In this document: piece by piece, positions 35,724-61,561 of the stretch
Position numbering within the stretch: position 1 is the first letter of the stretch
Layout of the letters: the number at the start of each line of letters is the position of its first letter
Origin: Xylocopilactobacillus apicola
GTDB taxonomy: Bacteria > Bacillota > Bacilli > Lactobacillales > Lactobacillaceae
Direction: 5' to 3'
NCBI RefSeq assembly: GCF_033095985.1
Contig: NZ_AP026802.1
Location: 1-64,000 of the forward strand
Length of the DNA stretch: 64,000 bases
Made by a program: the position numbers and the translations under genes
The notes under the pieces: model-generated
What the model saw: the letters and a program-made list of their open reading frames with translations, nothing else
What the model was told of the DNA's origin: nothing
The model's database searches: none

Positions 35724-35820
35724 GGGAGCGGATGGGTTCTGGTGTTCCCTCTGGTCTTCAAAACCAGTATGAGGGGTTTAAAGCTTCTTGGGTGGGTTCG
35801 ATTCCCACACGTTCCCGCCA
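35724..35820 (+). tRNA. selC: tRNA-Sec (anticodon UCA)
   Basis: A 97-nt tRNA with encoded CCA. The anticodon stem-loop CTGGT-CTTCAAA-ACCAG carries TCA at 35758-35760, like E. coli selC. The acceptor arm GGGAGCG pairs with CGTTCCC (one G-T pair), the discriminator is G, the T-arm is GTGGGTTCGATTCCCAC, and the extended variable arm is AGGGG/CTTCT. It decodes UGA as selenocysteine with SelB. It lies next to the selenium genes, on the opposite strand. Confidence 0.96.
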
Positions 35821-35863
35821 GTAAATCAGCTTCTGGTTCTTACTAGAAGAATAACAATTTGTC

Positions 35864-35897
35864 GCCTGCCTAAAAGTTTTAGGTGGGTGTTTTTTTG
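35864..35897 (+). terminator. Terminator after tRNA-Sec
   Basis: GCCTGCCTAAAA pairs with TTTTAGGTGGGTG, followed by seven T on the plus strand. Confidence 0.75.
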
Positions 35898-35899
35898 CA

Positions 35900-35928
35900 A
35901 AAAAACAGTTAGCACTGAGGCTAACTGC
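35900..35928 (-). terminator. Terminator of the prd/sel gene series
   Basis: On the minus strand CAGTTAGC-CTCAGT-GCTAACTG is followed by TTTTTTTGC, just past the prdC stop. It faces the tRNA-Sec terminator, so the two convergent units are well insulated. Confidence 0.8.
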
Positions 35929-35934
35929 AACATT

Positions 35935-37248
35935 TTATTGATCGTTTTCGGGGAGCATGTAACGCATAATTCGCATACCCGTTGCTCGCCGCGCAAAATC
36001 TGTCGTGTGAATAACTGGTAGTTTCAGTTTTGGTGCTACTCCCATGACGGTATTGGTACAATCGGTACAGTTACCGACCATGAGCTCTTCAGCACCATCT
36101 GCTCGTAATTTTAGAATTTTTTCGGCTTGTCCTGGACAAATACCAGGGTTGATACATTTTGCTCGGCCGGTTTTTTCATCGACGACGGCGTTTTTACACC
36201 ATTCGATCCCTACTACTTCGGCATCCATCGAAGCAGCTAGTTCTTTCATTCGTTCTGGTGTTGCGCCGCATGCACAAGCGAGCAGGCCAACTTTTTTGCC
36301 TTTAAGGCTTGGAAATGGGATTGTTGCAATGACTCCGCCCGCGGTTTTACTAATTGGTTGAGTTAGATCAGTGCGAGATCCGGTGAAAGGTCCACCCAAG
36401 ATCAATTCTCCGTATTCAGCCATTTTAGGATAATCTGTTAAAATATCTCCAACTAAAGTGCCGATTGGGACGTCTAGCTTGACATCGATAACCTCATTAT
36501 CGCCGTTTAAGCGCCCAGCCACGGTAATGTCTTTGGTCATAACTGGCTTGCGGTCCTCAATTGCTTCAGCTGCTCGAAAGACAGTCTCTAAATTAGTTAC
36601 GATCGCATTAGCAGCATAAGGTAATTCATCGGTTTTTAAAAGCTTGTGGAGATTGGAATCCCGGATGATTGCCCGTTCTTCCCCTTCTGGATAGCGATTT
36701 AGCATTAACTCTAACGAAATATCGTCGTGACCGCGAATCGCTTCTTCTAGTAGAGCGACAGCATTAGTGTTTTTGCGTTTAATTGCAATTTGAACATCTT
36801 TTGCACCGACAATATCCTTGATGTATTCAATTCCACGAACAATTTTCTCGGCATCCGTAATGATGCGAGCGATGTTGTGACGCAAAACAGGTTCACATTC
36901 AGCAGCGTTAATAAATAAATGACCGTCAGGAATGGGGCGGGCATATTTAGCACCAGCTGGAAAACCAGCACCTCCACATCCGACAACACCTGCTTCAGTA
37001 ATTGCTTCTAAATTTGAAGCAGTGTCAGGGATTTTGACAAAGTCAGAACTTTGTTTTTGGTCAGCAGTAATTTCAATGTATTGATCAGTGACCTCTTTAA
37101 TGATGCCATCAACACTGGAGTGTAAATTCACGCCTAAACCGTTTGGAACGGCAATGAGCTGGCCGCGTTTAACTTTATCACCAACTTTGACAGTCGGGTT
37201 ATCGAAAGCGCCAACGCTTTGCTTCAATGATAACTTAATTAAACTCAT
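35935..37248 (-). CDS. prdC: PrdC, RnfC-like electron transfer protein of proline reductase
   Basis: A 437-residue RnfC-like protein: N-terminal sandwich domain (VGDKVKRGQLIAVPNGLGVN), glycine-rich nucleotide-binding part (VVGCGGAGFPAGAKYARP, near 88), SLBB-like region, and a cysteine-rich C-terminus (LLACACGA; GRAKCINPGICPGQ; GNCTDCTN). In clostridia PrdC passes electrons from NADH to proline reductase. Here it is the last gene of the series instead of preceding prdA. No in-frame UGA is present, so it is a Cys-only form. Confidence 0.9.
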   Translation of the reverse strand: MSLIKLSLKQSVGAFDNPTVKVGDKVKRGQLIAVPNGLGVNLHSSVDGIIKEVTDQYIEITADQKQSSDFVKIPDTASNLEAITEAGVVGCGGAGFPAGAKYARPIPDGHLFINAAECEPVLRHNIARIITDAEKIVRGIEYIKDIVGAKDVQIAIKRKNTNAVALLEEAIRGHDDISLELMLNRYPEGEERAIIRDSNLHKLLKTDELPYAANAIVTNLETVFRAAEAIEDRKPVMTKDITVAGRLNGDNEVIDVKLDVPIGTLVGDILTDYPKMAEYGELILGGPFTGSRTDLTQPISKTAGGVIATIPFPSLKGKKVGLLACACGATPERMKELAASMDAEVVGIEWCKNAVVDEKTGRAKCINPGICPGQAEKILKLRADGAEELMVGNCTDCTNTVMGVAPKLKLPVIHTTDFARRATGMRIMRYMLPENDQ

Positions 37249-37264
37249 AGATTATTTCCTCTCT

Positions 37265-38950
37265 TTAATCGTGAATGCCTAGAAACAACTTGGCATAGCG
37301 GCTCATTTTTGCCGTAGTCCAAGCAGGTTCCCAGACAAGCTTAATAGTGCATTCTTCAATTTCTTTGATTGCCAGAACTTGTTCTTTGATTTGTTCAGAT
37401 AACATCTCGCTTAATGGACAGCCCATAATAGTTAGAGTCATCGTAATTAAGCATTGGTGATTGAAACATGTTACATCGTAAATCAAGCCTAAATTAACAA
37501 TATCAATTCCTAATTCAGGGTCAATGACGTCTTCTAGTTGACCATAAACTGTATCGGCTAAAAGTTCATCTTCATTAGTTTCATTCATGGTTTTCACTTT
37601 TTTAAAAATTTTTGTAAGTTCTTCAATGATAACGGATAAATCTGTTTGTGTTAAAGTTCTAAGATCAAACAATAACTGCTCATTTTTTAAACGAGTGATT
37701 ATTGGGATTGTTGCTTGACGTAATCGAGTATCGAAATCTTGCGTAGAAATCTTCGGAGACGAAACAGCAACAATTGAGGTTGGCAGCTCTAAATTTGGGA
37801 AAGTTCCACCCCCAACTTCTGAATAACCAGCAATGATTTCTGATTTAATATCTGGTAATTGTTGCAGTTGAGCTAGGAAATACTCTGCGCTACTTTGTAG
37901 TTCGTTTTTTGTTCGAGTGAGCATCCGTAAAGTCGGGATTTCCTTTAAAGCACGGGCTGGCTCTTGGTAAATTTGCAGGGTTGCCTCTAAAGCAGCAAGA
38001 GTTAGCTTGTCAATCCTTAAGGCTCTAAGTAGCTGATGGTGTTTAAGCTGATCAATGTATTTTGATTTCCCAACAATAATACCAGCTTGGGGTCCACCTA
38101 ATAATTTGTCGCCTGAAAAAGCTACCAAATCGCTGAATTGCGCAATTTCTCTAACTGTTGGTTCATCATTAATATCTGGTAGATTGACCATTAGCCCGCT
38201 CCCGAGATCAGTAATTAGCGGTAAATTTGCTTGATGAGCAAGTTCCACCAACTCTGATTCTGGAACTTGTTCGGTAAAGCCGATAATTTCGTAATTACTA
38301 GGGTGAACTTTTAAAATAGCTCCAGTTTGTTCGTTAATTGCGCTCTGATAGTCAGCTAAATGAGTTTTGTTGGTAGTTCCGACTTCTCTTAAGGTGCTAT
38401 TAACACTTGTGATAATGTCAGGGATTCGAAACGAACCGCCAATTTCAACTAATTCTCCACGCGAGACAACTACCTCTTTTTTGTGAGCAATTGTTGATAA
38501 GATTAATAATACTGCAGCGGCATTATTGTTTACTACTAAAGCTGATTCAGTTCCTGTCAGCTCTTTTAGGATGCTTTCTACATGTTCATAGCGACTTCCC
38601 CGTTTTTTTTCATTGAGCGAAAATTCGAGGTTAGAATAATTAAAGGAAATATCATTTAATTTTTCCTTGACACACTTACTTAAAACCGATCGACCCAAAT
38701 TAGTATGGAGAATAATTCCAGTTGCATTAATTACTGGTTGCAACGAGTTAGCTGAATTTTCTTTTATTTTCTTGGTGATCATGATTTTAAGATCTGCAAT
38801 GTTTACTTGCGTGATTTTGCCGTTTTGGATTTGGGCCCTAGTGTTTTTTAACACTTGTTCGATGGCAGCTTTAACTGCAGGAGTGTTACCTAAACTTTCA
38901 ACTAGTTCATTCATCGAAGGGATTTGACGAAAAATTTCAGTCTGATTCAT
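37265..38950 (-). CDS. selA: Selenocysteine synthase SelA fused to a MIP18/DUF59 domain
   Basis: A 561-residue protein. Residues 1-452 are L-seryl-tRNA(Sec) selenium transferase: INATGIILHTNLGRS (74-88) and the PLP lysine Lys282 (AFSGDKLLGGPQAG). Residues 455-561 are a MIP18/DUF59 domain (DVIDPELGIDIVNLGLIYDV; MGCPLSE, Cys511) of the kind found in iron-sulfur assembly proteins such as SufT. Normal SelA is about 460 residues. The joint is in frame, and the internal ATG (37588) has no clear ribosome binding site, so a true fusion is likely. It overlaps the cysteine desulfurase gene by four bases. Confidence 0.93.
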   Translation of the reverse strand: MNQTEIFRQIPSMNELVESLGNTPAVKAAIEQVLKNTRAQIQNGKITQVNIADLKIMITKKIKENSANSLQPVINATGIILHTNLGRSVLSKCVKEKLNDISFNYSNLEFSLNEKKRGSRYEHVESILKELTGTESALVVNNNAAAVLLILSTIAHKKEVVVSRGELVEIGGSFRIPDIITSVNSTLREVGTTNKTHLADYQSAINEQTGAILKVHPSNYEIIGFTEQVPESELVELAHQANLPLITDLGSGLMVNLPDINDEPTVREIAQFSDLVAFSGDKLLGGPQAGIIVGKSKYIDQLKHHQLLRALRIDKLTLAALEATLQIYQEPARALKEIPTLRMLTRTKNELQSSAEYFLAQLQQLPDIKSEIIAGYSEVGGGTFPNLELPTSIVAVSSPKISTQDFDTRLRQATIPIITRLKNEQLLFDLRTLTQTDLSVIIEELTKIFKKVKTMNETNEDELLADTVYGQLEDVIDPELGIDIVNLGLIYDVTCFNHQCLITMTLTIMGCPLSEMLSEQIKEQVLAIKEIEECTIKLVWEPAWTTAKMSRYAKLFLGIHD

Positions 38951-40107
38951 GTTCTGGCTTCCCTTTCTAGTTCATCAGAGAGTGTTTTGATTGCCTTAAC
39001 CGCTTGATCGACATCACTTGGCTGGTTGAAACTTGAGAAAGAAAATCTAACCATCCCCTGATCCTTAGTCTTAAGCGCACAGTGTAGAAGAGGAGCACAA
39101 TGAGCCCCAGCCCGAGTTGCGATGTCATAATGCGTCTGAAGGAAGTCGCTTATTTCAGCTGAGTTTATATCCCCTAGATTAAGACTAACCGTCGCCACTT
39201 TCGGGCGATTTAAATTTCCATAGATTTTAACTTGTGGCAAATTTTTGATTCCTGCAATGAAACGATCGGCTAAATTCCTTGCAACAGTGCCTGAATTCTC
39301 AATTCCTTGAGCTAAAACATATTCGATTCCAGCACCCAATCCAGCAATGCCAGCAACATTTAAGGTTCCCGCTTCAAGGTGCTCGGGAAAAACAGCTGGT
39401 TGATCATGGTTAAAAGAATCAATTCCGGTTCCTCCCGAGATCAAAGGTTCAATAGCCAGTTGATGGCTTAAACAAATTCCGCCCGTTCCCTGGGGGCCGA
39501 AAAGAGATTTGTGACCAGTAAAACAAAGAACATCAATGCCATCGCGTCTAACGTCAATCGGTATAACACCCGCTGTCTGGGCCGCGTCGACAACCATTAA
39601 TAATTGGTTCTGGTGACAAAAATCACTAATAAACTTAAGGTCCAATATTTCGCCAGTCACATTTGAGGCGTGAGGACAAACGACCATTTTAGTGTTAGGT
39701 TTGAGGAGTCGCTCAAATTGGTTGTAATCCAGAGACCCATCTTTGTTTAGTCCAACAAAATCATGTTCAATACCGGTTTTTTCTAACTGATAAATTGGCC
39801 TTAGCACTGAGTTATGATCTAATGTAGTTGCAATAACATGATCTCCTGATTTCAAAAGCCCTTTGATGGCAAAGTTTAAAGCTTCTGTTGCGTTATTTGT
39901 AAAAGCAGTCAAACTAGGATCTGCTAAATTGAACAATTTTCGAATCAATTTACGGGTTTTGAAAACTTCATCAAGAGCGTTGACTGAAGCATTGGAAGAA
40001 CCACGAGCTGGATTTCCAAACTTTGCACTACTAATTATTTCAAATACTTTTTTTCCAACAATTGATGGTTTAATTAGTGTAGTAGCCGCATTATCTAGGT
40101 AAATCAT
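38947..40107 (-). CDS. Cysteine desulfurase family protein (selenium-associated type)
   Basis: A 386-residue PLP enzyme with MIYLDNAATT at the start, the PLP lysine Lys200 (FTGHKSLFGPQG) and the sulfur-accepting Cys337 (TRAGAHCAPLLHC). It would liberate selenium or sulfur from selenocysteine/cysteine to feed SelD or cluster assembly. It is of the subgroup found beside selD/yedF genes in Firmicutes. It overlaps both selB (4 bp) and selA (4 bp), so it is translationally coupled to both. Confidence 0.9.
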   Translation of the reverse strand: MIYLDNAATTLIKPSIVGKKVFEIISSAKFGNPARGSSNASVNALDEVFKTRKLIRKLFNLADPSLTAFTNNATEALNFAIKGLLKSGDHVIATTLDHNSVLRPIYQLEKTGIEHDFVGLNKDGSLDYNQFERLLKPNTKMVVCPHASNVTGEILDLKFISDFCHQNQLLMVVDAAQTAGVIPIDVRRDGIDVLCFTGHKSLFGPQGTGGICLSHQLAIEPLISGGTGIDSFNHDQPAVFPEHLEAGTLNVAGIAGLGAGIEYVLAQGIENSGTVARNLADRFIAGIKNLPQVKIYGNLNRPKVATVSLNLGDINSAEISDFLQTHYDIATRAGAHCAPLLHCALKTKDQGMVRFSFSSFNQPSDVDQAVKAIKTLSDELEREART

Positions 40108-42002
40108 GTCGTTTCATGACCTTTCTTTAATATCCGTTTATTGCTCGATCTTTCAGTAATTCCGTCTTGATCCATTTTAGTCAAAACCAACATTGCATAA
40201 CGTCGACTTGATCCCGTTAAATCACGGTAATCTGCCAAACTCATTGGACCATTTTCTTTAATAAAGGATCTAACTTGCTCTGCTATTTTTTGATAAACTT
40301 CTCGATCGATTACGGTTTCAGAATCTAAAAGAACCACATCATCTCCAATCATTGACATTAGTACTTCTTTTGCTCTGGCCTGTCCATTAACCAGTTCATC
40401 AATTGAAGGAGGTGTATTACCTGAAGCCACTAATCGTTGATGGATTTCTAATTGGATTGCTTGATCTTCTTTAGTCAGTTGCGGTGAGAAGGAGGCCAAG
40501 TGATAATTTTCACCATTTATTCTAATCAGATCTTTTGTTTCGAGATATTTTAAAATCACTTTTGCAGCAGATTCACCAATTTCAGCACTTAATTGGGCTT
40601 GAACTACTGATCTTGGACAACCTGAACGAAGAGGATACTGTTGGTGATATTTCTCTAGCTCATTAATAATTTGTTGATTTTTGAGTTTAGCATTTTTGAT
40701 CACCAACAATTGATTGTCAATTTTTACAATTTCCTGATCAGTGATTAGATTTTCAATTTCCCGGGAAATAATGTTAGGACTCTCGTTAAAAGTCACTGCT
40801 AGATCCTTTGGATTGAGCAAATATTCTTTTTGATAAGATGCATAGTCAACAATCATTTCTTTTAATTTGCCGCGATGGCGAATTTTTAATTGCTGCAAAA
40901 TCTGTTGATCAAATCTTTTTCGAGTTGGGGGTTTCGGATCTAAAATTTGACCACCACCCAAGGTTATTAATGGTGAGTAGGAACGAATAATGAAATGATC
41001 GCCATACTTAACCACAATAGGTTGCTCTAATCTAATTTGTGCAAAGCACTCGCTTTCTGGTTTAAAATCATCAGTCCCTAAAGGATAAATCCTACCCAAA
41101 ACTTCAGTGGCACCAACATAAACGTGAACGCGGGTGTTAAGTTCTAGTAGCTGCTCTTTGAAATTCAGGGTCTTTAAATTGACATTAATTTCGTCAGTAA
41201 TTTGAACAGTATTTTTGGTTGCAATAACGGAACCACGGGAAATTTCGTCAGCAGCTAAATTAACATTTAATGCTGTTCGCTGACCAGGTAAAGCAGTATC
41301 AGTTGCTTGATCATAAGTTCTCACGCTTTTTACGTGAACATTTTTCTCTTCGGGATAAAGTATTAGGTTATCCCCGTTTTTAACAGCACCCTCTAAAAGG
41401 GTGCCAGTTACGACGGTTCCAAAACCTTTAATAACAAAATTACGATCAATGTTCAAACGAGCAAAACCAGTGTTTTTTCGAGGTTTAATTTTTTGGGACA
41501 TCTTTTGAATTTCTGCAATCAAATCATTTAGTCCAAACCCGCTTGCAGCATCAGTCTTAATGATTGGAGCATTTATAAGCACCGGGTCAGATTTAAAAGT
41601 TTCCTTGATGTCAGAGATTGTAAATTCAATCATTTCCTGATCAGTAGTTTTAACTTTTGTTAAAACAATAATAAAATTAGTCAAACCAATTAGGCGCAAA
41701 ATGCTGGCATGTTCAATGGTTTGTGGCATGACGCTTTCATTGACATCAATAACAAGAAGTACTAAATCCACGCCAGATAAGCCCGCTAACATGTTTTTTA
41801 AGAATTTCTCATGACCGGGAACATCGACAATTCCAACTCGTTGATCGTTAGGTAATTTCAAAAAGGTAAAACCCAGATTAATTGTAAGACCACGGCTCTT
41901 TTCTTCTTCGGTAGTATCGGTATCAACCCCAGTAAGACTTTTGATCAGGGTTGTTTTACCGTGGTCAACGTGTCCTGCTGTTGCAATTACTATTTGATCC
42001 AA
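40104..42002 (-). CDS. selB: Selenocysteine-specific elongation factor SelB
   Basis: About 632 residues. The EF-Tu-like GTPase has GHVDHGKTTLIKSLTG, DVPGHEKFLKNML and the switch region SRGLTINLGF. Domains II and III follow, then C-terminal winged helices (final part MSLADYRDLTGSSRRYAMLV) that bind the SECIS hairpin. I choose the TTG at 42002 because AGAGGA lies six bases before it; ATG codons at 42017, 42047 and 42065 lack such a site. The start overlaps the DUF3343 gene. SelB brings Sec-tRNA to UGA codons. Confidence 0.95.
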   Translation of the reverse strand: MDQIVIATAGHVDHGKTTLIKSLTGVDTDTTEEEKSRGLTINLGFTFLKLPNDQRVGIVDVPGHEKFLKNMLAGLSGVDLVLLVIDVNESVMPQTIEHASILRLIGLTNFIIVLTKVKTTDQEMIEFTISDIKETFKSDPVLINAPIIKTDAASGFGLNDLIAEIQKMSQKIKPRKNTGFARLNIDRNFVIKGFGTVVTGTLLEGAVKNGDNLILYPEEKNVHVKSVRTYDQATDTALPGQRTALNVNLAADEISRGSVIATKNTVQITDEINVNLKTLNFKEQLLELNTRVHVYVGATEVLGRIYPLGTDDFKPESECFAQIRLEQPIVVKYGDHFIIRSYSPLITLGGGQILDPKPPTRKRFDQQILQQLKIRHRGKLKEMIVDYASYQKEYLLNPKDLAVTFNESPNIISREIENLITDQEIVKIDNQLLVIKNAKLKNQQIINELEKYHQQYPLRSGCPRSVVQAQLSAEIGESAAKVILKYLETKDLIRINGENYHLASFSPQLTKEDQAIQLEIHQRLVASGNTPPSIDELVNGQARAKEVLMSMIGDDVVLLDSETVIDREVYQKIAEQVRSFIKENGPMSLADYRDLTGSSRRYAMLVLTKMDQDGITERSSNKRILKKGHETT

Positions 42003-42252
42003 GTTCAATCCTCTCATAATGGGTTTTGAGCCCGTTTTTGTGTCCGACATATATTGCATTTTCATTGTCTAATAGTTTAATTATCTCTTCAAGGTCTTCA
42101 ACTGCACAGAAGATACTCAAACCACACCCAGCGCTTATTGTTCCAGGTGTAGTTAAAACCCGTGTTTGATAATGCTTAGCTGTCAGAAGGTCTTGTGCTT
42201 TAATTGCTAATTGAGTTGACTCAAAAACAATTAACCCGAAATCGTCATCCAT
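41965..42252 (-). CDS. DUF3343 protein, selenium-locus associated
   Basis: A 95-residue protein: GLIVFESTQLAIKAQDLL, VLTTPGTISAGCGLSIF and EEIIKLLD, the DUF3343 pattern (putative selenium or sulfur carrier-related, function unproven). A single conserved cysteine sits in SAGCGLS. It lies three bases after yedF and overlaps the start of selB, fitting the frequent yedF-DUF3343 pairing. Confidence 0.82.
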   Translation of the reverse strand: MDDDFGLIVFESTQLAIKAQDLLTAKHYQTRVLTTPGTISAGCGLSIFCAVEDLEEIIKLLDNENAIYVGHKNGLKTHYERIELGSNSNCNSRTR

Positions 42253-42255
42253 AAT

Positions 42256-42906
42256 TTATGGTTTAACGATGCGTTGAGCCTTGCGCATTAGTTCTAAGAT
42301 ATGGTACAAATTCGTAATTTCACCCACTTGTAATTGATCTTTGATTCCGTAGAAATCTACACAAGTTCCGCAGACCAAAATCTTAACACCCTTTTCTTGG
42401 AGTGCTTTAATGTCTGGAACCGATTCAGAGCCTTCAACGAGAAGTTTGACGCCGCCGTTAAAGAAAATAACGGTTTCTGGTAAAACATCTTGTTCAGTTA
42501 GTGAATAAATGAAGCTCTTCATGAGAATCGCGCCAAGTTGATCATCGCCTTGTCCCATGACGTTGGTGCCGATAACCGTTAAATAACCATCAGACAACCG
42601 GACATTATTAACAAAAGCTGGTTCGATTGCTTGAGTTAGATTATCATCAATTGCTTGTGAGACTTTAGCAGGTGTTGGGATCCTCTGGATTGCAGAATTT
42701 TCGCGGTTAATCTCAATTTGAACATCTTGGTTTCCAATTTCTTGTTTACTAAAAGAATATTGCAATTGTTGAGCTAATTTTTCAAGATTTTCTGCTGCCT
42801 CTTCATTATCAACGGTAATCTGAATTTCAGTGTGATCTCTGAGTGCTTTTTTTGCCTTAATTACAGGTAACGGACAAGCAAGTCCGCGCGCATCAATTTT
42901 TTTCAT
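42256..42906 (-). CDS. yedF: Selenium metabolism protein YedF (TusA-like plus DsrE-like)
   Basis: A 216-residue two-domain protein. The TusA/SirA-like N-terminus has DARGLACPLPVIKAKKAL (Cys11). The C-terminal DsrE-like half has VIFFNGGVKLL and ILVCGTCVDFYGI (two cysteines). It is thought to carry or deliver selenium in Sec-using bacteria. It stands between selD and the DUF3343 gene with short gaps. Confidence 0.92.
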   Translation of the reverse strand: MKKIDARGLACPLPVIKAKKALRDHTEIQITVDNEEAAENLEKLAQQLQYSFSKQEIGNQDVQIEINRENSAIQRIPTPAKVSQAIDDNLTQAIEPAFVNNVRLSDGYLTVIGTNVMGQGDDQLGAILMKSFIYSLTEQDVLPETVIFFNGGVKLLVEGSESVPDIKALQEKGVKILVCGTCVDFYGIKDQLQVGEITNLYHILELMRKAQRIVKP

Positions 42907-42915
42907 TTTAACTCC

Positions 42916-43947
42916 TTAATCTACGATAATGTCTGCGGCCGTGGGGACAGGTTTCTTTTGGATTCGGCCAATTTTACTAAATGGAACTTTTTTCTGAGTC
43001 ATTTCAGCCATCATTGCCTCGGCGTCTTCAGCTTTAACGCTGATTAAAAGACCACCAGAAGTCTGGGGATCAAAGACGATTTCTTCTAAAGCATGATCGA
43101 CAAAGTTGAAATGAATTCGCTCTTTGAGAAATTTTCGATTCCTTTGGCCGCCAGCAGTAACTAATAAATCTTCCGCACAGGCGTAAGCCTCAGGAATGAT
43201 TGGTAAATCTTCGGCCTCGATAACAGCTTGATGTTGACCACCTGTAAGCATTTCAGCCAAGTGACCGGCAAGACCAAAGCCCGTTACATCAGTACAAGCG
43301 CTAATTGAATACTTGCGCATAACCATAGATGCATCACGGTTAAGCATTGTCATAGAGGCAACGGCTGTATTGAAAGCTTCAGGGCTTACCGCTTCGGCTT
43401 GATAACTTGCGGTGATGATTCCCACTCCCAATTTCTTGGTTAAGATCAAAACGTCGCCATCATTAACCTTGTTATTGCAGATAATTTGATGAGGGTCAAT
43501 TGAGCCAGTAACTGAAAGTCCATACTTGGGCAAATGGTCATGGATGGAGTGCCCTCCTGCAATGACGCCTCCTGCTTCAGTAACTTTCTCTTGGCCGCCA
43601 GCTAGAATTTTCTTCAAAGTTGTTAAACTACCCTTTTCCGGAAAACAAACGATATTGAGCGCTAATAAAACATCGCCGCCCATTGCAAAGATGTCACTTA
43701 AGGCGTTAGTTGCAGCAATTTGACCAAACAGATAAGGATCAGTGACCATTGAAGGAAAGAAATCAATTGTTTGAATAGTCGCAAGATGCTCATTTAATTG
43801 ATAAACTGCTGCGTCATCAGTAGAGTCAAAACCTACTAGCAGCCGAGGATCGTGATTTTGGGGCAAATCATTTAAAAGATTTTTGAGGTCCCCTGGCCCC
43901 ATTTTGGCATTACATCCACCACAGACAAACAATTGTTCTTCATCCAT
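42916..43947 (-). CDS. selD: Selenophosphate synthetase SelD
   Basis: A 343-residue protein. The active-site pair is Cys12 and Lys15 in CGGCNAKMGPG, equivalent to Cys17/Lys20 of E. coli SelD. The ATP/metal-binding parts VGFDSTDDAAVYQ, ATNALSDIFAMGGDVLLALN and DVTGFGLAGHLAEM follow. It makes selenophosphate for SelA. It uses Cys, not Sec. It begins after a hairpin that separates it from the TSUP gene. Confidence 0.96.
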   Translation of the reverse strand: MDEEQLFVCGGCNAKMGPGDLKNLLNDLPQNHDPRLLVGFDSTDDAAVYQLNEHLATIQTIDFFPSMVTDPYLFGQIAATNALSDIFAMGGDVLLALNIVCFPEKGSLTTLKKILAGGQEKVTEAGGVIAGGHSIHDHLPKYGLSVTGSIDPHQIICNNKVNDGDVLILTKKLGVGIITASYQAEAVSPEAFNTAVASMTMLNRDASMVMRKYSISACTDVTGFGLAGHLAEMLTGGQHQAVIEAEDLPIIPEAYACAEDLLVTAGGQRNRKFLKERIHFNFVDHALEEIVFDPQTSGGLLISVKAEDAEAMMAEMTQKKVPFSKIGRIQKKPVPTAADIIVD

Positions 43948-43971
43948 CTTAAACTCCTTATCTAAAAGACC

Positions 43972-44001
43972 GCAATCTAAAAATTGATTACGGTCTTTTG
44001 T
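43972..44001 (-). terminator. Hairpin between the prd genes and selD
   Basis: AAAAGACCG (minus strand) pairs with CGGTCTTTT across an A/T-rich loop, in the 91-bp gap between the TSUP permease and selD. It resembles a leaky terminator that would set selD-and-downstream expression below the prd genes. Confidence 0.55.
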
Positions 44002-44038
44002 AAAACTAACGATTACCTAAACCGCAGTTGAATAAAAA

Positions 44039-44920
44039 TTATTTAGCAGTTTTGCGAAAACCTTGATATAACATTGTTAAAGCGGTATAAGCAACAACAA
44101 TGATAACAAGCCATGACAAAACTTTAACGTCAAGACTTTTAACAAATTTAACTGCAACATAAACACCGATTACTCCACCGATTGTAATTCCAATCGAACC
44201 CATTCGGTTATAATCGCCCTTTTTAATGAATTCGCGGCTAGCAACTGGCATTAAGGCAGCACAAGATGCCATCATAATTGGAAAAGCAGCGATTGGAGTT
44301 AGGCCTAAAAGGTAAATCATTGCCATACAAGGAGCATAAAGCCCGATTCCGGCAGTCATAAGAGCTCCTAGGATTAAATTACCAATAATTCCAATGAATA
44401 GTTTGCCACCAGTTAAGGCAGTAGCTTCATTACCGTTTCCAAGTCCTGCTAAAACACCAGTATTTTGTAACAGCATCAAGATTGAAGTTACGACAAGGGC
44501 AAATCCCATAATTATTTGAATTTTCTTCTCATCAACTTTTGCAATAAATTTAGAGCCAAAAAATGAACCAACAGCTGAAGCGATTACTAGTGAGATCAAA
44601 GTTAAACCGTCAACTTTGACCGAAGTAATAAACATAAATGCTTCAACTAAAACCGGAATAGAACAAGCAACATTTAGAGTTCCAGGTAGCAACTTGTCAG
44701 ATTTTAAAAATTTTGTCAGCTTTAAAAACATTGTGGTTGGTGCATAGCTACCAATCCCGAGGGCATCAAAAAAATTACAAATAAATCCAATGCCCCCCGC
44801 AATATAAACATTTCCATCGTTAATCTCATCGCGATGTTTTACTAGATCACGAATCCAGATAAACGCAAAATAGATGCCTAAAATGCCTAATAATATTTGA
44901 AGTACAGTCTTAATTGGCAA
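44039..44920 (-). CDS. TSUP (TauE/SafE) family permease
   Basis: A 293-residue integral membrane protein with about eight hydrophobic helices and the family's repeated halves (GGIGFICNFFDALGIGSYAP and ILGALMTAGIGLYAPCMAMI). TSUP proteins move sulfite, sulfonates and other small anions. Between prdF and selD, selenium or sulfur oxyanion uptake, or proline/5-aminovalerate handling, are possibilities. None is proven. Confidence 0.85.
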   Translation of the reverse strand: MPIKTVLQILLGILGIYFAFIWIRDLVKHRDEINDGNVYIAGGIGFICNFFDALGIGSYAPTTMFLKLTKFLKSDKLLPGTLNVACSIPVLVEAFMFITSVKVDGLTLISLVIASAVGSFFGSKFIAKVDEKKIQIIMGFALVVTSILMLLQNTGVLAGLGNGNEATALTGGKLFIGIIGNLILGALMTAGIGLYAPCMAMIYLLGLTPIAAFPIMMASCAALMPVASREFIKKGDYNRMGSIGITIGGVIGVYVAVKFVKSLDVKVLSWLVIIVVAYTALTMLYQGFRKTAK

Positions 44921-44932
44921 AATCTTTACCTC

Positions 44933-45949
44933 CTATTTCAGTGTAAATCCTCCAGATAATGGATCTGACGGATCGAACAAGAAGGTGTTAAATCCAGTAA
45001 GATATGCCGATCCGGTAATCTCAGGAATAATTGCATTAACTCCGCCGATCGAAGTTTCTTCGACTACTCGGCCAACAAATTTGGTATTTAGAATACTTTC
45101 ATAAACAAATGGCTCGTTTAAGCCAATCTGTTTTTTGGCATACAAGGTCGCTAATTTAGCACTGGTACCAGTTCCACAAGGAGAACGATCAACTTGACCA
45201 TCGCCAAAGACTACGACGTTTTGCATTGTAGCATCACTAGACTGCGGCTCACCGTACATTTCTACTAAATCAATGGTATTGATATAGTCCATGGCCGGAT
45301 GTTGAACCGGAATCTGTTCATTAGCAGCTTTAAGAATTTTCATTCCAATTTCTGCCAACTGGTTACTATTGTTTTTTTCAATTTTTAAGTTGAGTTCAGC
45401 GATTGGTAAAATCGCAAAAAAACTACCCCCAAATGAAACATCTAGTTTGATTGAACCCAACTCAGCAACATTGATTTCAACGTCACGCTTCAGTAAGAAT
45501 GCAGGGACGTTACGAAAAGAAACGCTTTGAACATGATATGGTTCATCTAAATGAGCAGTTGCGTGAATAATTCCCGCAGGTGCTTCTAAGACAACCTCTT
45601 TTTCACGGTCGTTCTCTGAAACGTCAACCATGCCAGTTTCAACAATTGCAGTTACTGCGGCAATCGTATTGTGACCACACATGTTTAAATAACCGCCAGT
45701 ATCCATGAAGATAATGCCAAAATCAGCTTCGTCGCTGACAGCAGGAATCAAAAATGCGCCAAACATTTCATCGTGTCCCCGCGGTTCCAGCATTAAAGCT
45801 TTACGTAAATCATCTTTTTCTTCTATTAAATACTGTTTCTTTTCGGCAATCGTTTTACCCTTTAATTTTGGAATCCCTCCAGTAATGATTCTAGCTGCTT
45901 CACCAGCCGTGTGAGAATCGATCCCTGAAAGCATTCTTGAAATTTTCAA
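44933..45949 (-). CDS. prdF: Proline racemase PrdF
   Basis: A 338-residue proline racemase with the two catalytic cysteines Cys91 (GYLNMCGHNT) and Cys258 (VDRSPCGTGTSAK). It converts L-proline to D-proline, the substrate of the reductase. The start is a TTG overlapping the prdE stop (TTGA), indicating coupling. Length and motifs are normal. Confidence 0.95.
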   Translation of the reverse strand: MKISRMLSGIDSHTAGEAARIITGGIPKLKGKTIAEKKQYLIEEKDDLRKALMLEPRGHDEMFGAFLIPAVSDEADFGIIFMDTGGYLNMCGHNTIAAVTAIVETGMVDVSENDREKEVVLEAPAGIIHATAHLDEPYHVQSVSFRNVPAFLLKRDVEINVAELGSIKLDVSFGGSFFAILPIAELNLKIEKNNSNQLAEIGMKILKAANEQIPVQHPAMDYINTIDLVEMYGEPQSSDATMQNVVVFGDGQVDRSPCGTGTSAKLATLYAKKQIGLNEPFVYESILNTKFVGRVVEETSIGGVNAIIPEITGSAYLTGFNTFLFDPSDPLSGGFTLK

Positions 45950-46440
45950 TTGTTTTCCTCCAATTCAGCAGACTTTTGATCTGCACGCATTTTTAATTTT
46001 AAAAAACCAAGAGCTTTATTGGCATCACGTTCATCGAGACTGTTCTCTGCAAGGACCGTGGTTTCTTTGCCGCTAGGAGATTTGTTAATATCTAATACGT
46101 AAGGAGTATATTCATTAGTTACAACAAAAGTTGCTTGGGTGCCGATAAATTTTAAACCAATCACCGAGATTCCCTCAGAACCAATACTTTCCATTGTATT
46201 CATGAAATCGACATCAGAATTGCCCCAGCCATCAGCAGAGATTACTGCGCCGTCGGTTCGCATAGCTTTAAGCCATTTAGCGACTCGCTTACCAACAAGA
46301 TTCTTTAAAACATTATCCTGCGGAGTGCCGACGACAATAATTCCTTGAAAATCAATGTCTGGATCTTGGGCAAAAACACGCACCAAGGGATCCTTAAAGT
46401 GATGTTTTGTTGTTTCTTTAGTTGATGGACCAACTCCCAT
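45946..46440 (-). CDS. prdE: PrdE, homologous to the C-terminal part of PrdA
   Basis: A 164-residue protein matching the C-terminal piece of PrdA: MGVGPSTKETTKHHFKDPLV against CIGPASKETTRHYWREPLV. It starts almost exactly at the PrdA cleavage point, with Met in place of the pyruvoyl-forming Cys. AAGGAGG precedes it. The partner protein PrdD matches the N-terminal piece. Known in prd operons; the exact function is unclear. Confidence 0.88.
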   Translation of the reverse strand: MGVGPSTKETTKHHFKDPLVRVFAQDPDIDFQGIIVVGTPQDNVLKNLVGKRVAKWLKAMRTDGAVISADGWGNSDVDFMNTMESIGSEGISVIGLKFIGTQATFVVTNEYTPYVLDINKSPSGKETTVLAENSLDERDANKALGFLKLKMRADQKSAELEENN

Positions 46441-46452
46441 TCTATCCTCCTT

Positions 46453-47193
46453 TTAAACCATTGCTCTAATTGCGCCATCGCGATACTCATTGGGAGTGAG
46501 AAGAACGGGAAAATTATTGAGATCAATAATGGAAATTCCGTCTTCCATCCCACTTGGTTCTTTGGCGAAAAGTAAATTATCATACATTGCTCCTTGGCCA
46601 GAGACTTGTTTGACAATCGCGACTTTTGGTTTACCCGGATGGACCTCATTGACATATTCATGAGTATAGTCAGCTTCCAAACCGTTAGTTACTTTCAAAA
46701 TTTTGCGAATTGGCTGAATGTAAGCATCAGCAAAAGCAAAAATTTCGGTCATCGACTTACGATCCATCTTGGAGGTGCTTTTAACAATGACATTAAACAT
46801 AATAATGTAATCATTAGTGCCTGGCGTTCCATCGCGGTCTAACATGATTTGATCTTTTAAGATTCCATCAGAAGATCCAAAATCATGGATTTGGCGCCCT
46901 TGTTGATCTGCGCCAGTTAGTAGCACACAAGTACCGGTGAGAGTATGGGTAATCCCCTCTCCGATGTTTCCCAGCACTTTAGTAGAGATTGGAATAACAT
47001 CCATAATGGCGTTAGTGGGCACATCTAGTTGATTAGGGGGCAAAACTTTAATTTCAACCGATTGAAAATCAGCTGGCAGCACTTCTTGCGGCTTTTTTGG
47101 AATCACTAACTGATGATCCTTAAGCTGATAACTATCTCCTATTTGAACGTGGTCAATAATAAACTCTTTAATCTTAAGCGTTTCATTAGGCAT
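46453..47193 (-). CDS. prdD: PrdD, homologous to the PrdA proprotein N-terminal part
   Basis: A 246-residue protein similar to PrdA residues 180-424 (NAIMDVIPISTKVLGNIGEG; VKQVSGQGAMYDNLLF; NEYRDGAIRAMV at the end). It ends where PrdA would be cleaved and lacks the pyruvoyl Cys. It lies 31 bp after prdB and 12 bp before prdE. Confidence 0.88.
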   Translation of the reverse strand: MPNETLKIKEFIIDHVQIGDSYQLKDHQLVIPKKPQEVLPADFQSVEIKVLPPNQLDVPTNAIMDVIPISTKVLGNIGEGITHTLTGTCVLLTGADQQGRQIHDFGSSDGILKDQIMLDRDGTPGTNDYIIMFNVIVKSTSKMDRKSMTEIFAFADAYIQPIRKILKVTNGLEADYTHEYVNEVHPGKPKVAIVKQVSGQGAMYDNLLFAKEPSGMEDGISIIDLNNFPVLLTPNEYRDGAIRAMV

Positions 47194-47224
47194 CTTTTAA
47201 CTCTCTAAATGCTTTAGATTTTTT

Positions 47225-47950
47225 TTAAATTTTAGCAAGATATTCATATGGTAATGGGATGATTTTACCTGGTTGTTCAAGCTTTTCAAGCTGAGATAAA
47301 GTATCCTTTAAAATACCAGTTTGCATTTCGATATTATGAGGTTCACCAGCGTTAGCTCCCATTGGAACACGAGGAGCAACGGCCCGTGGAGATCCTTGTT
47401 GACGTACGACTGGAGGTAGGGCTGCAATAATAATAGTTGGGATGCCAACTTCTTCAATAGCTCGCTGCACGATCACGGCAGTTCTATGACAGGTCCCTCA
47501 CCCGGCAGTTAAAACAACAGCATCAACTTTTTCTTCTAATAATTTTTGAGCAATTTCCGGCCCAGTTTGTTCGGTGAAGACTTTAACGTCTCCCCCGCCA
47601 CCCATACAAGTATACATGCTTGGAGCAACTGCCTTGATAAAGCCAGAATCAGCTAATTCGCGTAGGCGGTCGATTGGAAACATTGAGTTGATATCACGAT
47701 TTACATCAGTATTATCGTATCCGCCATGAGATACCATCAATTCATCGGTTTGAGCGGTTCCTGGAACCATCCGATATGAAGTATCTCCTGCAAGGTTAAA
47801 TGGTTTATCAGTTTTTAAATGGACGCCTGCTGCGGTAACTAGCGCAACAGTCATATCTTTTAACGGTTTAGTAACTGGTGCCCAAACCGGTTTTGGGGTA
47901 ATCGGGACAAAAATTTCTGATTGTAGTCCCTCAAACTTCTTGAGACTCAT
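47225..47950 (-). CDS. prdB: D-proline reductase selenoprotein PrdB
   Basis: Read with UGA as selenocysteine it is 241 residues, the usual PrdB length. The UGA (47498-47500) is Sec151 in VVLTAG-U-GTCHRTAV, giving the family's UxxC motif. Frame and homology continue after it (VQRAIEEVGIPTIIIAALPP; RAVAPRVPMGANAGEPHNIE). It is the catalytic selenoprotein that reduces D-proline to 5-aminovalerate together with pyruvoyl-PrdA. Automatic callers will split it into 47498-47950 and 47225-47476. Its start overlaps the preceding gene by 20 bp. Confidence 0.96.
47465..47481 (-). promoter_or_regulatory. Candidate SECIS hairpin in prdB
   Basis: Downstream of the UGA by 16 nt, CTGC (47481-47478) pairs with GCAG (47468-47465), with a possible inner CG/CG, around a short loop containing UGAU. 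Position fits a bacterial SECIS, which SelB binds right after the UGA. The stem is short and I have not folded it quantitatively. Confidence 0.5.
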
Positions 47951-48281
47951 TGTGAGTACTCCCTTCCTTTAATAAATTTCTTTGTTTGGTTTTTTCTTGA
48001 ACTTCTCGCATCCTCTGATGATAAGCGGCTAATGCATTAACGTATTTTTCATTTGGAGCTTCTTGTATGACTTCAGGATAAGACATTAAGAAAGCAACTT
48101 CTTGTCCGATGCGCATTTCGTATTCGGTAATAACCATGCGTTTAGGAACTTCAAGTCGTCCCATCCGGCCCTTGAGGTCAATTACAACACTAGCATCAGT
48201 CAACTCAATGATGACACCCTGCCAAACAGTTTCAGTTGATGCGTATTTAAGTTCATCAAAGCCAATATTTTCTTCGGCCAA
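47931..48281 (-). CDS. Small proline-reductase-cluster protein (CBO2463/CBO2479 type)
   Basis: A 116-residue protein between prdA and prdB, the place where clostridial operons also carry a small gene. Features: VWQGVIIELTDASVVIDLKGRMGRLEVPKR, a beta-rich core read in two parts, and a charged helical C-terminus (HQRMREVQEKTKQRNLLKEG). Role unknown. It starts five bases after prdA and overlaps prdB. Confidence 0.8.
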   Translation of the reverse strand: MAEENIGFDELKYASTETVWQGVIIELTDASVVIDLKGRMGRLEVPKRMVITEYEMRIGQEVAFLMSYPEVIQEAPNEKYVNALAAYHQRMREVQEKTKQRNLLKEGSTHNESQEV

Positions 48282-48286
48282 TGTTG

Positions 48287-50179
48287 TTAACCTTCGGCTT
48301 TTTCGTAAATTTCACGCCGTTTTTTGCTCATTGGCAGAGATTGCTCATTTTGAACCAGATGAATCTTTTGGCCCGTCTGTTTTTCAATCACTTCAATGTT
48401 ATTTTGTTTAACATTTGGATTCCATTGACGTTCTGGTTTCTTAATCGTTCCACCAGCCATTTTGGTTTCCAGCATTGCTAGAGCCCGGACAGCTTCTTCA
48501 GGACACAAGGTGTTGTTTGAGAGAACTTCGTTTTCAATTCCCTGACGCGACTTATTATTGTCAACCATTGCATCCATATATTTGTTACCAGTGACTAATT
48601 GGCCTTGGACAGCTGAGAAAGTAACCCCAACGACAGCAACACCGCGTTTACCAATTTCTTCATGGTGGAATCCGAAGTCAATATGATTATTACCAAAACC
48701 TTCAGTTGTAATAATTGCACCATCAAGGTTCATCGCTTCAACCATCATTCCAAGACGTTTTGAAACGTAGGATTTTTGGGTGTTTTCCTGGGGAGAACCG
48801 ACTAAAGCAACACCTACTAAATCGATGTCTTCGTTATGCATAGCTTCTTCTACTAGAGGTTCTCTCCAATAGTGGCGTGTCGTTTCCTTAGAAGCAGGTC
48901 CAATACAAGTTAAAGCATGAATTCCGCCATCTAAAAGCTCAGTTGGCGCTAAAACTACCGGAACATTACCAAGGTCAACGTTTGGTTTTGCTCCCAGAGT
49001 TCCAGCAGGTTCTACTGGCATGATTAAGTTATCATGCATTGCACCCTGGCCCATGATTTCCTTAACGATAAGTACGCGTTTTTGACTTGGGTGACGTTTT
49101 TGAACAAATTCTTCACTATGGTCAACTAAACCTGCATCCGCTTCTTTTAAAGCTTCCCGAATTTCTTCAGTAATTGTATCTGTTGCCAAGTGGGCAGACA
49201 ATGGACCTTTACGCTCACGGTTAGTACCAGCGGCAACAGTGATGTTGAGTTTGATCATAATATCGCCTTTATCAACAGCGCCTGGACGACCCCACATGAT
49301 ATTTTCATCCATCGGGCCTTCAGATGAACCAAATTCACCGATTTGGACTCCGTTTTCGTCAGTTCCGGTTAAAACCATTACGACGCCATCTAAGACACGA
49401 GTGACACCTTCACCGATCTCACCTTCTTGCTTGGTTGCAATTGGCTGGACATCCATAATAGTATTGCTAAATTCATGATATTTATCTGGTGTAATAATCT
49501 CCATACTCATATCTTTAACAATATCTTGAGTTTCAACCGCTTCTTTGCATAAATCCTCAGCACTGCGCAATTGAAGAGTTTTTCCTTTGATCTCTGTTTT
49601 ATCACCAAAGGTAACTTTTTCGATTGGATAGTAGTCCTTAACCAATTTGCGGACTACCGTTGCTTCAACTTGTTCAGATTTATCCTCTGTAGGAGCAACA
49701 TCTGGACTTTCTGTTGTCTTTTGAGCTGGTTTGTTAGGATCCGTTGGTGCATCTGGTAAGACATTTTGTAACGCACTTAAAGGAATCTGCAAATCAATCC
49801 CCTTACCTTCAGCAATTGAAAGATGCAAAGTATTACCATCTTTAGTTATACCAGGAGCAACTGGTGCTGGACTTGGAGCCGCAGCAATAGGTGCAGCAGT
49901 CTCTGGTTTAGCTTCAGTTTTTGTTTCTTGGACCTGATCAACTGAATCAGGAGTTAAGGGAACTAAAGCATCTGTTGTTTTCTTTAAGGTCCCTCCCAAA
50001 GCTTGACCAATACTGAGCACGTCCTCAGGAATAGTTAACAATCCTGAACTGACGTAATCATCAAATAAAGTCGGATCTTCAAAATCAGCGGCTTCTAGAA
50101 CTTTGCCACTATCTCGACGACAACAGAGAACGGCTGGGTCAGCAGAATGCTCCTTCGCCATTTCTGGTGTAATAGACAT
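48287..50179 (-). CDS. prdA: D-proline reductase proprotein PrdA
   Basis: A 630-residue proprotein. A Pro/Ala-rich linker lies at about 85-170. The self-cleavage site is Cys425 in GGIHALTCIGPASKE, which would give a C-terminal subunit of about 206 residues starting with a pyruvoyl group; this matches Cys421 known in Clostridium sticklandii. The pyruvoyl binds D-proline and PrdB supplies the Sec. It is the first gene of the leftward series, with GGAGG upstream. The following gene is five bases away. Confidence 0.95.
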   Translation of the reverse strand: MSITPEMAKEHSADPAVLCCRRDSGKVLEAADFEDPTLFDDYVSSGLLTIPEDVLSIGQALGGTLKKTTDALVPLTPDSVDQVQETKTEAKPETAAPIAAAPSPAPVAPGITKDGNTLHLSIAEGKGIDLQIPLSALQNVLPDAPTDPNKPAQKTTESPDVAPTEDKSEQVEATVVRKLVKDYYPIEKVTFGDKTEIKGKTLQLRSAEDLCKEAVETQDIVKDMSMEIITPDKYHEFSNTIMDVQPIATKQEGEIGEGVTRVLDGVVMVLTGTDENGVQIGEFGSSEGPMDENIMWGRPGAVDKGDIMIKLNITVAAGTNRERKGPLSAHLATDTITEEIREALKEADAGLVDHSEEFVQKRHPSQKRVLIVKEIMGQGAMHDNLIMPVEPAGTLGAKPNVDLGNVPVVLAPTELLDGGIHALTCIGPASKETTRHYWREPLVEEAMHNEDIDLVGVALVGSPQENTQKSYVSKRLGMMVEAMNLDGAIITTEGFGNNHIDFGFHHEEIGKRGVAVVGVTFSAVQGQLVTGNKYMDAMVDNNKSRQGIENEVLSNNTLCPEEAVRALAMLETKMAGGTIKKPERQWNPNVKQNNIEVIEKQTGQKIHLVQNEQSLPMSKKRREIYEKAEG

Positions 50180-50406
50180 ATTTATACCTCCTTAAAATAT
50201 CGGAGAGAACACTTGAAATAGCGAGCCAAATCCCAGCCCGCTTAAAAATTTCGAATGAACTCTCAATTAGCTTGAACAACCTATTTAAAGATAAAATTAA
50301 AATCCCATCTTTAAACAGGATAAGTATAACATAGAGCAGTTTCAAAATGGCTAATTTTATTAAATAATTTGCATTTTTGAAATTGTCTTTTTTGGATCTA
50401 AAAAAA

Positions 50407-53500: not shown

Positions 53501-54102
53501 AAGCTGACAACTTTGACATTATTAATCGTACCCATGGTAATATGACCGCCCGAAACAACTGCTGGTGTATCCGTGCCGTGAAGGACAAAACTTGATTTTA
53601 CTTTGGCGCTCATTTGACCAGGCGCGGTGTTGGAAGTTCCGACTGCCCCAATGGGAATCAAAAATGCGTATTTAGTTGCATTTGTCGTTGTGACTTCTGT
53701 AATGACATCAATCGCATGACCAAAATTATCAAATCCGACGTTAGTATAAGTTATCTTAGCTTGCATATTGCCATTTGAACCAGCAGTTGGATATAACATA
53801 TAAATTCCGGGCGTATTGGGCATGTTAGGAATGTTCATACTGGCATCGTAAGGTTGGAGCGTACAATTACTGATCGGAGTTGCAACAATTCTTGTTTGCG
53901 CGCTGACCACCGGTGAAAAAGCATATTTGCCGTCGATTTGCGTAGTAAGATCGGTGCTAACTCCTGGCATTTGAGGTAACGGAGTTCCAGTAAATGCTGA
54001 AACTATTTTCCCTTGAAAGAGAAATGCTGAAAATAATGCAATAAAGAAAGCCATTGCTAATCCCTTTTTATTCATCATTTTTTCAATAAATTTTTTTAAC
54101 AT
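50557..54102 (-). CDS. BspA-type leucine-rich-repeat surface protein with WxL-like end
   Basis: An 1181-residue exported protein. The signal peptide (residues 10-37, LAMAFFIALFSAFLFQGKIVS, read in part) is followed by beta-rich domains. A long array of BspA-like/DUF285 repeats (about 660-1000) carries the pattern NMSSMFSQCSSLTAIDVTNF. The C-terminus has AKQWHIEAAVTKPF and YPWTLSF ending ITFTLVNNTP, as in WxL cell-wall-binding domains. No LPxTG sorting signal. A likely non-covalently wall-bound adhesin. Transcribed alone. Confidence 0.88.
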   Translation of the reverse strand: MLKKFIEKMMNKKGLAMAFFIALFSAFLFQGKIVSAFTGTPLPQMPGVSTDLTTQIDGKYAFSPVVSAQTRIVATPISNCTLQPYDASMNIPNMPNTPGIYMLYPTAGSNGNMQAKITYTNVGFDNFGHAIDVITEVTTTNATKYAFLIPIGAVGTSNTAPGQMSAKVKSSFVLHGTDTPAVVSGGHITMGTINNVKVVSFDINQFIKIYTRSDTIIKYAPGLNGLTDFSADTWSITAPSQLTGIFENKSGFQYEFKTTPDAWGILGSGFILGSLANIAMPGANKAGNDESIDPLTINAQALPLGTLSDFQPTPLLDPPYPTIHPSQVRPLYSITQILTYPQSPADYLKKYQIEDDLNPAWQVNPLDVVVTDEDGNVVTNNFDITINTLNHLTIAAKPTALSDTNFYGTAGHIFTFLIKGCVNKNNSATWQAQWQSTADPQSFYLGYPNKATLTYQVGTKPATTSETNSASNKILIFRPTVKTDQPKYNGDHSVISGKVNNRSTGVVGNPAYVDFYLTYRSKTGVTKTVPWNLQNPTTGVLNRLITSASGVDQNWTAQLPDDMGYNPSDTYNQTITVTIKDQDGVSNQTTFNLGSWWVVDSNNVLTIYPHELNFDVDRVNYIGDDGKPTSDWPWYRKDSQIVKTVISPGVTAKNSLFGLFSRMSAMTSIEGLAQLDTSEVTNMSSMFSQCSSLTAIDVTNFNTSNVTDMSSMFGYCSQLPNLDVTHFDTSKVENMAAMFKECNNLTNIDVTKFDTSKVTNMSAMFTSCKKITSLDVTHFNTSLVTDMSLMFFECSSLPTINLNNFVTSNVLDMRSMFGFSTGLTTLDLRNFDTSKVTSMSGMFYYCRSMTDLKLDSVKFDTSQVTAMDNMFNRCTVLPNIDVSFFKTKNVTNMNGMFGGCAEITRLDVSGFDTEKVGNFNAMFSGCSKLTSLDLTQFNTKRVYSSYRKGMLANTPKLWKITFGPNFILEDYVSNEMLANPTVEDAINDVDNPTPIYYVTNPQWREVGTGSPHEPKGNELTVTQMMNESAVRSDTRTYVWDQVGTQTLEATSRSIDFGTHEGYLKNQEYVSDSQNIKKTDNRNSDTAKQWHIEAAVTKPFTLTTNSTKVIKGDPLYYHDTTAGTTTHLTSTGQTIYSGTKSDNKPDTKNYPWTLSFKSIPSDIPTAGSYNGQITFTLVNNTP

Positions 54103-61560: not shown

Positions 61561-61561
61561 A

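Follow-up and report, generated by a model that had tools for sequence, protein, structure and literature searches.

A predicted complete selenocysteine-dependent D-proline reductase operon in the bee-gut lactobacillus Xylocopilactobacillus apicola

We analysed the first 64,000 nucleotides of the chromosome of Xylocopilactobacillus apicola (RefSeq assembly GCF_033095985.1, contig NZ_AP026802.1, positions 1 to 64,000, forward strand; hereafter the window). Positions 35724-50179 hold an intact 14-gene operon, which is read on the minus strand from 50179 to 35935, and a convergent gene for the selenocysteine (Sec) tRNA (tRNA-Sec). Judged from its sequence, this segment is a complete Sec-dependent D-proline reductase operon that also carries dedicated genes for Sec decoding. 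Very probably, the operon serves to regenerate NAD+ by reducing proline and was acquired by transfer among lactobacilli, after the electron-transfer protein PrdC had been exchanged for a cysteine type. Sec decoding and proline-based Stickland reduction are commonly regarded as foreign to lactobacilli.

Gene content of the operon

The operon runs prdA, a CBO2463-type gene, prdB, prdD, prdE, prdF, a TauE-family gene, selD, yedF, a DUF3343 gene, selB, a cysteine desulfurase gene, selA, and prdC. The genes are tightly packed and their frames are all intact (pseudogenes, 0 of 14). Parts were identified using NCBIfam profile models with curated cut-offs, Pfam for the remaining domains, and ARAGORN and Rfam for the tRNA. 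All parts listed in a first-pass annotation of this DNA, namely prdA, prdB with its UGA, prdD, prdE, prdF, prdC, and the Sec toolkit, were found by these means to be present and intact. The TauE/PrdG-like membrane protein, the CBO2463-type protein, and the SufT-like domain joined to SelA were not on that list and are added here.

The proprotein of D-proline reductase is encoded by prdA (48287-50179; TIGR04480, 929 bits, cut-off 700). Its Cys425 (codon 48905-48907, motif ALTCIGP) is the expected pyruvoyl precursor, and the TC motif of this processing site was observed in 82 of 82 PrdA examined. The selenoprotein subunit, with Sec151, is encoded by prdB (47225-47950; TIGR04483, 405 bits with the TGA read as Sec, cut-off 300). 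A CBO2463/CBO2479-domain protein encoded between these two genes (47931-48281; NF041553, 87 bits) is conserved in all clusters. The product of prdD (46453-47193; TIGR04482, 346 bits, cut-off 320) resembles PrdA before the cleavage site, and that of prdE (45946-46440) resembles PrdA after it, matching positions 415-566 of TIGR04480, the PrdA C-terminal region. The best match of PrdF (44933-45949) was the proline racemase model PRK13969, although its 487 bits fell below the curated cut-off of 556; the operon position is the usual one for prdF. On its 3' side lies a gene for a TauE/SafE-family membrane protein (44039-44920; PF01925, 58.5 bits). Such a gene adjoins prdF in nearly all prd clusters, including that of Clostridioides difficile, and is the positional counterpart of prdG, whose product has been proposed to export 5-aminovalerate (PMC3091704). 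By analogy, this protein is a possible 5-aminovalerate exporter. The last gene, prdC (35935-37248; TIGR04481, 589 bits, cut-off 490), encodes an RnfC-like NADH/FMN electron-transfer protein of the cysteine type, which has Pfam Nuo51 FMN-binding and RnfC_N domains, CTDC at residues 394-397, and no in-frame UGA.

The genes of the Sec toolkit lie between these reductase genes. They encode a selenophosphate synthetase of the cysteine type (selD, 42916-43947; TIGR00476, 370 bits, cut-off 125), YedF (42256-42906; TIGR03527, 212 bits, cut-off 110), a putative Se/S carrier of the DUF3343 family (41965-42252; PF11823, Se_S_carrier, 60 bits), the Sec-specific elongation factor (selB, 40104-42065; TIGR00475, 351 bits, cut-off 242), and a cysteine desulfurase family protein of the EF2568 type, a putative Se/S donor (38947-40107; TIGR01977, 406 bits). 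Homology of SelB begins at residue 25, and its true start is probably an internal ATG near 42011-42015. In the selA frame (37265-38950), SelA (TIGR00474, residues 12-446, 563 bits, cut-off 268) and a SufT/FeS-assembly (DUF59) domain (TIGR02945, residues 466-559) form a single in-frame fusion. The junction has an A run before GTGAAAACCATG, and one base missing from that run would also give the picture of a fusion.

Selenocysteine decoding

The single in-frame stop in prdB is a TGA at codon 151 (47498-47500). It lies in TAG-U-GTC and thus within a UxxC motif. Every other PrdB in the loci examined, where its length allowed a decision, has an in-frame UGA at this codon; the one exception is a cysteine version. 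The tRNA-Sec gene selC (35724-35820, plus strand), with a UCA anticodon, was detected by ARAGORN and by Rfam (RF01852, 69.1 bits, gathering score 47); it is 88% identical to the copy in the same relative place in Bombilactobacillus mellifer. The components of the Sec-decoding trait, SelA, SelB, SelD, and tRNA-Sec, are all present.

The Sec insertion sequence (SECIS) hairpin, CUGCCG-UGAU-CG-U-GCAG (47465-47481, minus strand), lies 19 nt downstream of the UGA, counted from its first base, and was recognised by synonymous constraint and conserved pairing. Folding energy alone was uninformative (z-score 0.39, not significant), and hence synonymous-site conservation was used. Covariation was unusable because the hairpin pairs hardly vary, with 92-100% paired cells over 50 distinct sequences. 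The mean normalised codon entropy was 0.20 for prdB codons 156-163 versus 0.78 elsewhere in the gene (minimum elsewhere, 0.50). Their synonymous positions are far more constrained than any others in prdB, as expected for a SECIS hairpin. The SECIS motif was absent from the cysteine PrdB of another Lactobacillaceae genome (L131).

Two other explanations bear on these genes. The Sec kit might mainly serve other selenoproteins, with proline reductase being incidental: any gene with a UGA codon could make use of SelB and tRNA-Sec, and one Loigolactobacillus genome has SelB without a true PrdA. However, the only other GRDB-family match in the X. apicola genome is a Sec-free N-terminal protein, and 11 of the 12 sampled Lactobacillaceae genomes with SelB above the cut-off also have PrdA. 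We regard this explanation as quite improbable. The Sec-free protein (L140; 1201259-1201825 of the genome, minus strand) matches the N-terminal half of GRDB only and is encoded between PTS EIIC and asparaginase-like genes.

Alternatively, the operon might be decaying or silent, an inherited relic or selfish element of no current function. The sister species does without the operon, no promoter stands out upstream of prdA, and the SelA-SufT fusion is possibly a lesion; against this, the frames are intact, without any pseudogene, and the catalytic residues and the SECIS hairpin are kept. The probability of such decay seems small.

Distribution among lactobacilli and relatives

PrdA was detected above the cut-off in 12 of the 398 Lactobacillaceae genomes sampled (about 3%), and SelB was likewise detected in 12, of which 11 were common to both sets. 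In the sample of Lactobacillales, PrdA was found in 23 of 395 genomes (about 6%). Among the named carriers were B. mellifer, Loigolactobacillus, Companilactobacillus, a Limosilactobacillus metagenome-assembled genome, Enterococcus, Vagococcus, Listeria, and Gemella, and a prd cluster was also found on megaplasmids of Ligilactobacillus salivarius. The full trait is thus scattered through Lactobacillales, megaplasmids and cultured, non-pathogenic strains included. A search for the prd cluster in viral contigs gave no match.

In a 2006 survey, the lone selD of Enterococcus faecalis was the only selenium gene of Lactobacillales (PMC1794560). In 2014, the region of L. salivarius JCM1046 was printed with prdB as a probable pseudogene, and its genes were read as those of proline interconversion and L-selenocysteine synthesis (PMC4165912). 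Automatic annotation may mistake prdB for a pseudogene, so that a proline reductase phenotype is easily missed. The first-pass annotation had started from the premise that lactobacilli lack Sec decoding and Stickland reductases; this was too strong, since carriers occur across Lactobacillaceae and on L. salivarius megaplasmids such as pMP1046A (PMC4165912). Accordingly, the X. apicola operon adds a good further example to a known system, mostly unremarked in its carriers, and is not a unique oddity.

Other observations were made among these genomes. In L131, the prd cluster encodes a cysteine PrdB (TGGCGTC) and a cysteine PrdC, and SelB was not found above the cut-off; this cluster is predicted to specify a selenium-free proline reductase. 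In three genomes of the Loigolactobacillus and Companilactobacillus groups (L130, L132, and L133), a second, GRDB-like frame has an in-frame TGA in the motif TSTUGTC and is 28-31% identical to PrdB, possibly representing another selenoprotein reductase in Lactobacillaceae. PrdA, PrdC, SelB, and SelD of Enterococcus termitis and Listeria farberi (L012 and L015) are nearly identical, which would reflect either a recent exchange between orders or contamination of an assembly. In the plasmid collection, prd genes were found on megaplasmids of Enterococcus raffinosus and Enterococcus gilvus and on eight Terrisporobacter plasmids, each roughly 21 kb long.

Host genome and origin of the cluster

The host genome is a single contig of 2,311,735 bp that starts at dnaA and contains no Ns. 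Its DnaA is 92% identical to that of a complete genome of the same genus (2,271,855 bp), confirming a lactobacillar chromosome; genome sizes of 2.31 Mbp for X. apicola XA3 and 2.27 Mbp for X. apis KimC2 have been reported (PMC10433979). The first-pass annotation had raised the prospects of a chimeric contig and of a clostridial dnaA. Neither was borne out: homologous clusters occur in other cultured strains, the contig is free of Ns, and dnaA is not clostridial.

In the PrdA tree, the Lactobacillaceae sequences formed one clade (100/99), in which the window and B. mellifer sequences were sisters (100/99). L131 was left out of this careful tree because it had a very long branch in the first one. 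The SelB tree had long joined branches and was not relied on. PrdA of the window is 78% identical to that of B. mellifer and 63% to that of Companilactobacillus mishanensis, whereas the DnaA identities are 57% and 54%, respectively. Of the seven genomes sampled from the Bombilactobacillus group, to which B. mellifer belongs and which was assigned to the genus through contig coordinates, one had PrdA and one had SelB, and the three other Xylocopilactobacillus genomes, including the sister species, had no PrdA and no SelB above the cut-off. The sister species is thus a natural negative control.

A clostridium might have donated the whole package directly and fairly recently. The diversity of prd clusters is deepest in clostridia, and the window PrdC stands on a branch that also holds the cysteine PrdC of C. 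difficile; both would fit such a donation. However, the window PrdA lies inside the Lactobacillaceae clade, and forcing it to group with clostridia was rejected by the approximately unbiased (AU) test (p-AU 2.5e-50). In addition, the clostridial clusters examined mostly have no adjacent selD-yedF-DUF3343-selB-desulfurase-selA block. Recent transfer from clostridia is not likely; we assign this explanation hardly any probability. Of the earlier proposal that the parts were acquired together from such a source, acquisition as a unit still appears probable, given the same gene order and convergent tRNA-Sec in B. mellifer and the three congeners without PrdA and SelB; clostridia as the immediate source do not. 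Taken together, these findings suggest transfer among lactobacilli as the simplest reading, by which the cluster probably reached X. apicola as one piece.

Exchange of PrdC and comparison with known clusters

In Companilactobacillus, Enterococcus, Vagococcus, Listeria, and Gemella, the core prdA-prdF-TSUP is the same as in the window and in lactobacillales is usually followed by selD-yedF-selB-selA. In these clusters, however, prdC precedes prdA and encodes a selenoprotein with a Sec codon near residue 392. By contrast, the PrdC of the window, B. mellifer, L. salivarius, and Limosilactobacillus is a cysteine protein on a separate branch (100/100), and its gene is not directly before prdA. Loigolactobacillus has the same cysteine type, 69-72% identical and with no in-frame stop, on another contig. 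Holding the cysteine PrdC together with the Companilactobacillus PrdC was rejected (p-AU 0.004), whereas the PrdA of these clusters do group; hence, PrdC was exchanged. The Sec-PrdC was probably swapped for the cysteine type earlier in that cluster lineage, before the transfer to X. apicola. The operon is therefore a mosaic, which is a new detail, and its cysteine PrdC lies at the end opposite to that in the Sec-PrdC clusters. Since PrdC of C. difficile is also a cysteine protein (PMC3091704), the cysteine type is compatible with activity. The exchange offers a natural comparison of an electron-transfer protein in its Sec and Cys forms.

The closest layout is that of B. mellifer Bin4 (L002/L127), which has the same gene order from prdA to prdC and a convergent tRNA-Sec; the DNA from prdA to TSUP is 73.6% identical and the cysteine PrdC 82%. 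It differs in that selA and sufT are two overlapping genes, an additional putative metal transporter gene stands before prdC, and an amino-acid permease gene lies beyond the tRNA. Region R1 of the L. salivarius JCM1046 megaplasmid pMP1046A (PMC4165912) has the same genes, including selA-sufT-prdC and tRNA-Sec, and a 76% identical cysteine PrdC. There, selA and sufT are separate neighbours, a permease gene stands between TSUP and yedF, and selD, yedE, and a second yedF lie at the far end. SufT comes next to selA, on its 3' side, in the clusters of the window, B. mellifer, and L. salivarius but not in the three Companilactobacillus clusters checked, and we can only guess that it helps PrdC, an Fe-S protein, to mature.

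With the clostridial operons of Acetoanaerobium (Clostridium) sticklandii and C. difficile, comprising prdA-prdF, PrdC, and PrdR, the window shares all enzyme subunits, the prdB UGA at the same place, the PrdA processing cysteine, the predicted racemase, and the TauE/PrdG-like protein after prdF. It differs from them in its embedded Sec genes and in the position of prdC, moved to the 3' end. Its PrdC is of the cysteine type, as in C. difficile, whereas that of C. sticklandii has CxxU. The Sec-gene block mostly missing beside the clostridial clusters is present in many of the lactobacillales clusters. Apart from the mosaic PrdC and possibly the SelA-SufT fusion, which are minor novelties, this is a known system in an unexpected host.

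Proposed function

The mechanism is modelled on the biochemistry of the clostridial D-proline reductase (PMC3091704); the conversion of D-proline to 5-aminovalerate is inferred from that enzyme, and the residues, domains, and genes for it are seen here. PrdF would racemise L-proline to D-proline, which would bind to processed PrdA at its pyruvoyl group. The proline ring would then be attacked and opened by Sec151 of PrdB. PrdC, with NADH and FMN, would re-reduce PrdB through its CTDC (a CxxC; CxxU elsewhere), and 5-aminovalerate would be released, perhaps via the TauE/PrdG-like protein. No Rnf-Nqr subunit was found in the X. apicola genome or in four relatives; hence, the cell probably gains regenerated NAD+ while fermenting sugar, rather than Rnf-driven ion pumping.

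X. apicola XA3 and X. apis KimC2 are strictly anaerobic, homofermentative bacteria of the carpenter-bee gut that need supplied NAD; the report contains no mention of proline (PMC10433979). nadE was above the cut-off in none of four Xylocopilactobacillus genomes and in 13 of 14 control genomes. Because the strain is an NAD auxotroph, the value of proline reduction to a fermenter is directly testable. Pollen is described as a proline-rich food (PMC4559642), which fits a bee gut and is not evidence of use. As a tentative and rather doubtful extension, a vertically transmitted, NAD-auxotrophic lactobacillus of the bee gut might rely on pollen proline as an electron acceptor via a selenoenzyme that such lactobacilli have passed to one another. 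Selenium and proline in the diet of the bee would then set its redox balance, with an NAD pool that it is unable to synthesise.

Several points weigh against acquisition by transfer and a role in proline reduction. Composition gives no foreign mark: the comparison of GC content and codon usage proposed in the first-pass annotation was uninformative (GC, 40.2% for the cluster and 38.5% for the other window genes; codon-usage r = 0.96). No empty site was found in the first 80 kb of the sister genome, and transfer is therefore deduced from patchy distribution and trees. The insertion borders were not found either, because synteny between the window (1-64000) and those 80 kb is limited to dnaA-dnaN-tRNA-Pro, and the neighbouring kinase gene has no ortholog in the genus. 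The origin-proximal region is thus highly variable in Xylocopilactobacillus. No proline transporter was identified, no convincing promoter was seen upstream of prdA, and, as annotated earlier, prdR is absent within the 64 kb (a genome-wide search for PrdR was not made). Finally, the operon might have been inherited vertically from an ancestral lactobacillus and lost in most descendants. The single Lactobacillaceae clade of PrdA, the similar grouping in the SelD and SelB trees, and the native-like codon usage are consistent with this. However, PrdA is restricted to the 12 genomes above, is absent in three congeners, and is megaplasmid-borne in L. salivarius; the PrdA of B. mellifer is far more similar than its DnaA suggests; and the near-identical PrdA in L. 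farberi and E. termitis indicate that the cluster moves. We consider vertical inheritance unlikely and retain transfer among lactobacilli.

Regulation and flanking region

PrdR is the sigma-54-dependent activator of the clostridial prd regulon. Sigma-54 is present in the X. apicola genome and missing in one prd-carrying Companilactobacillus genome. Upstream of prdA, no sigma-54 -24/-12 site with fewer than three mismatches was found, nor any shared or convincing sigma-54, Rex, or CcpA site. A weak sigma-70-like promoter candidate, TTGAAA-17-TATCCT, is located at 50317-50345 (minus strand), and such matches were no commoner in this region than in shuffles. Between selC (plus strand) and prdC (minus strand), a pattern scan found back-to-back terminator-like hairpins (35863-35928) with stems of 12 and 9 pairs and T runs; such scans are weak evidence alone.

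Directly upstream of prdA, a gene at 50557-54102 (minus strand) encodes a 1181-aa surface protein with nine PARCEL/Liste_lipo_26 repeats, a relative of which is encoded at 20-22 kb in the sister genome. The region 55300-63500 is low in GC (down to 27%), carries genes for an IrrE/M78 peptidase and a SIR2_2-domain protein together with a weak match to DUF4145, and resembles an accessory or defence island. At 20505-20690 and 24366-24547 (minus strand), the window matches the Listeria sRNA family rli28. Similar DNA is present at several sites of the sister genome, and it may be a dispersed repeat.

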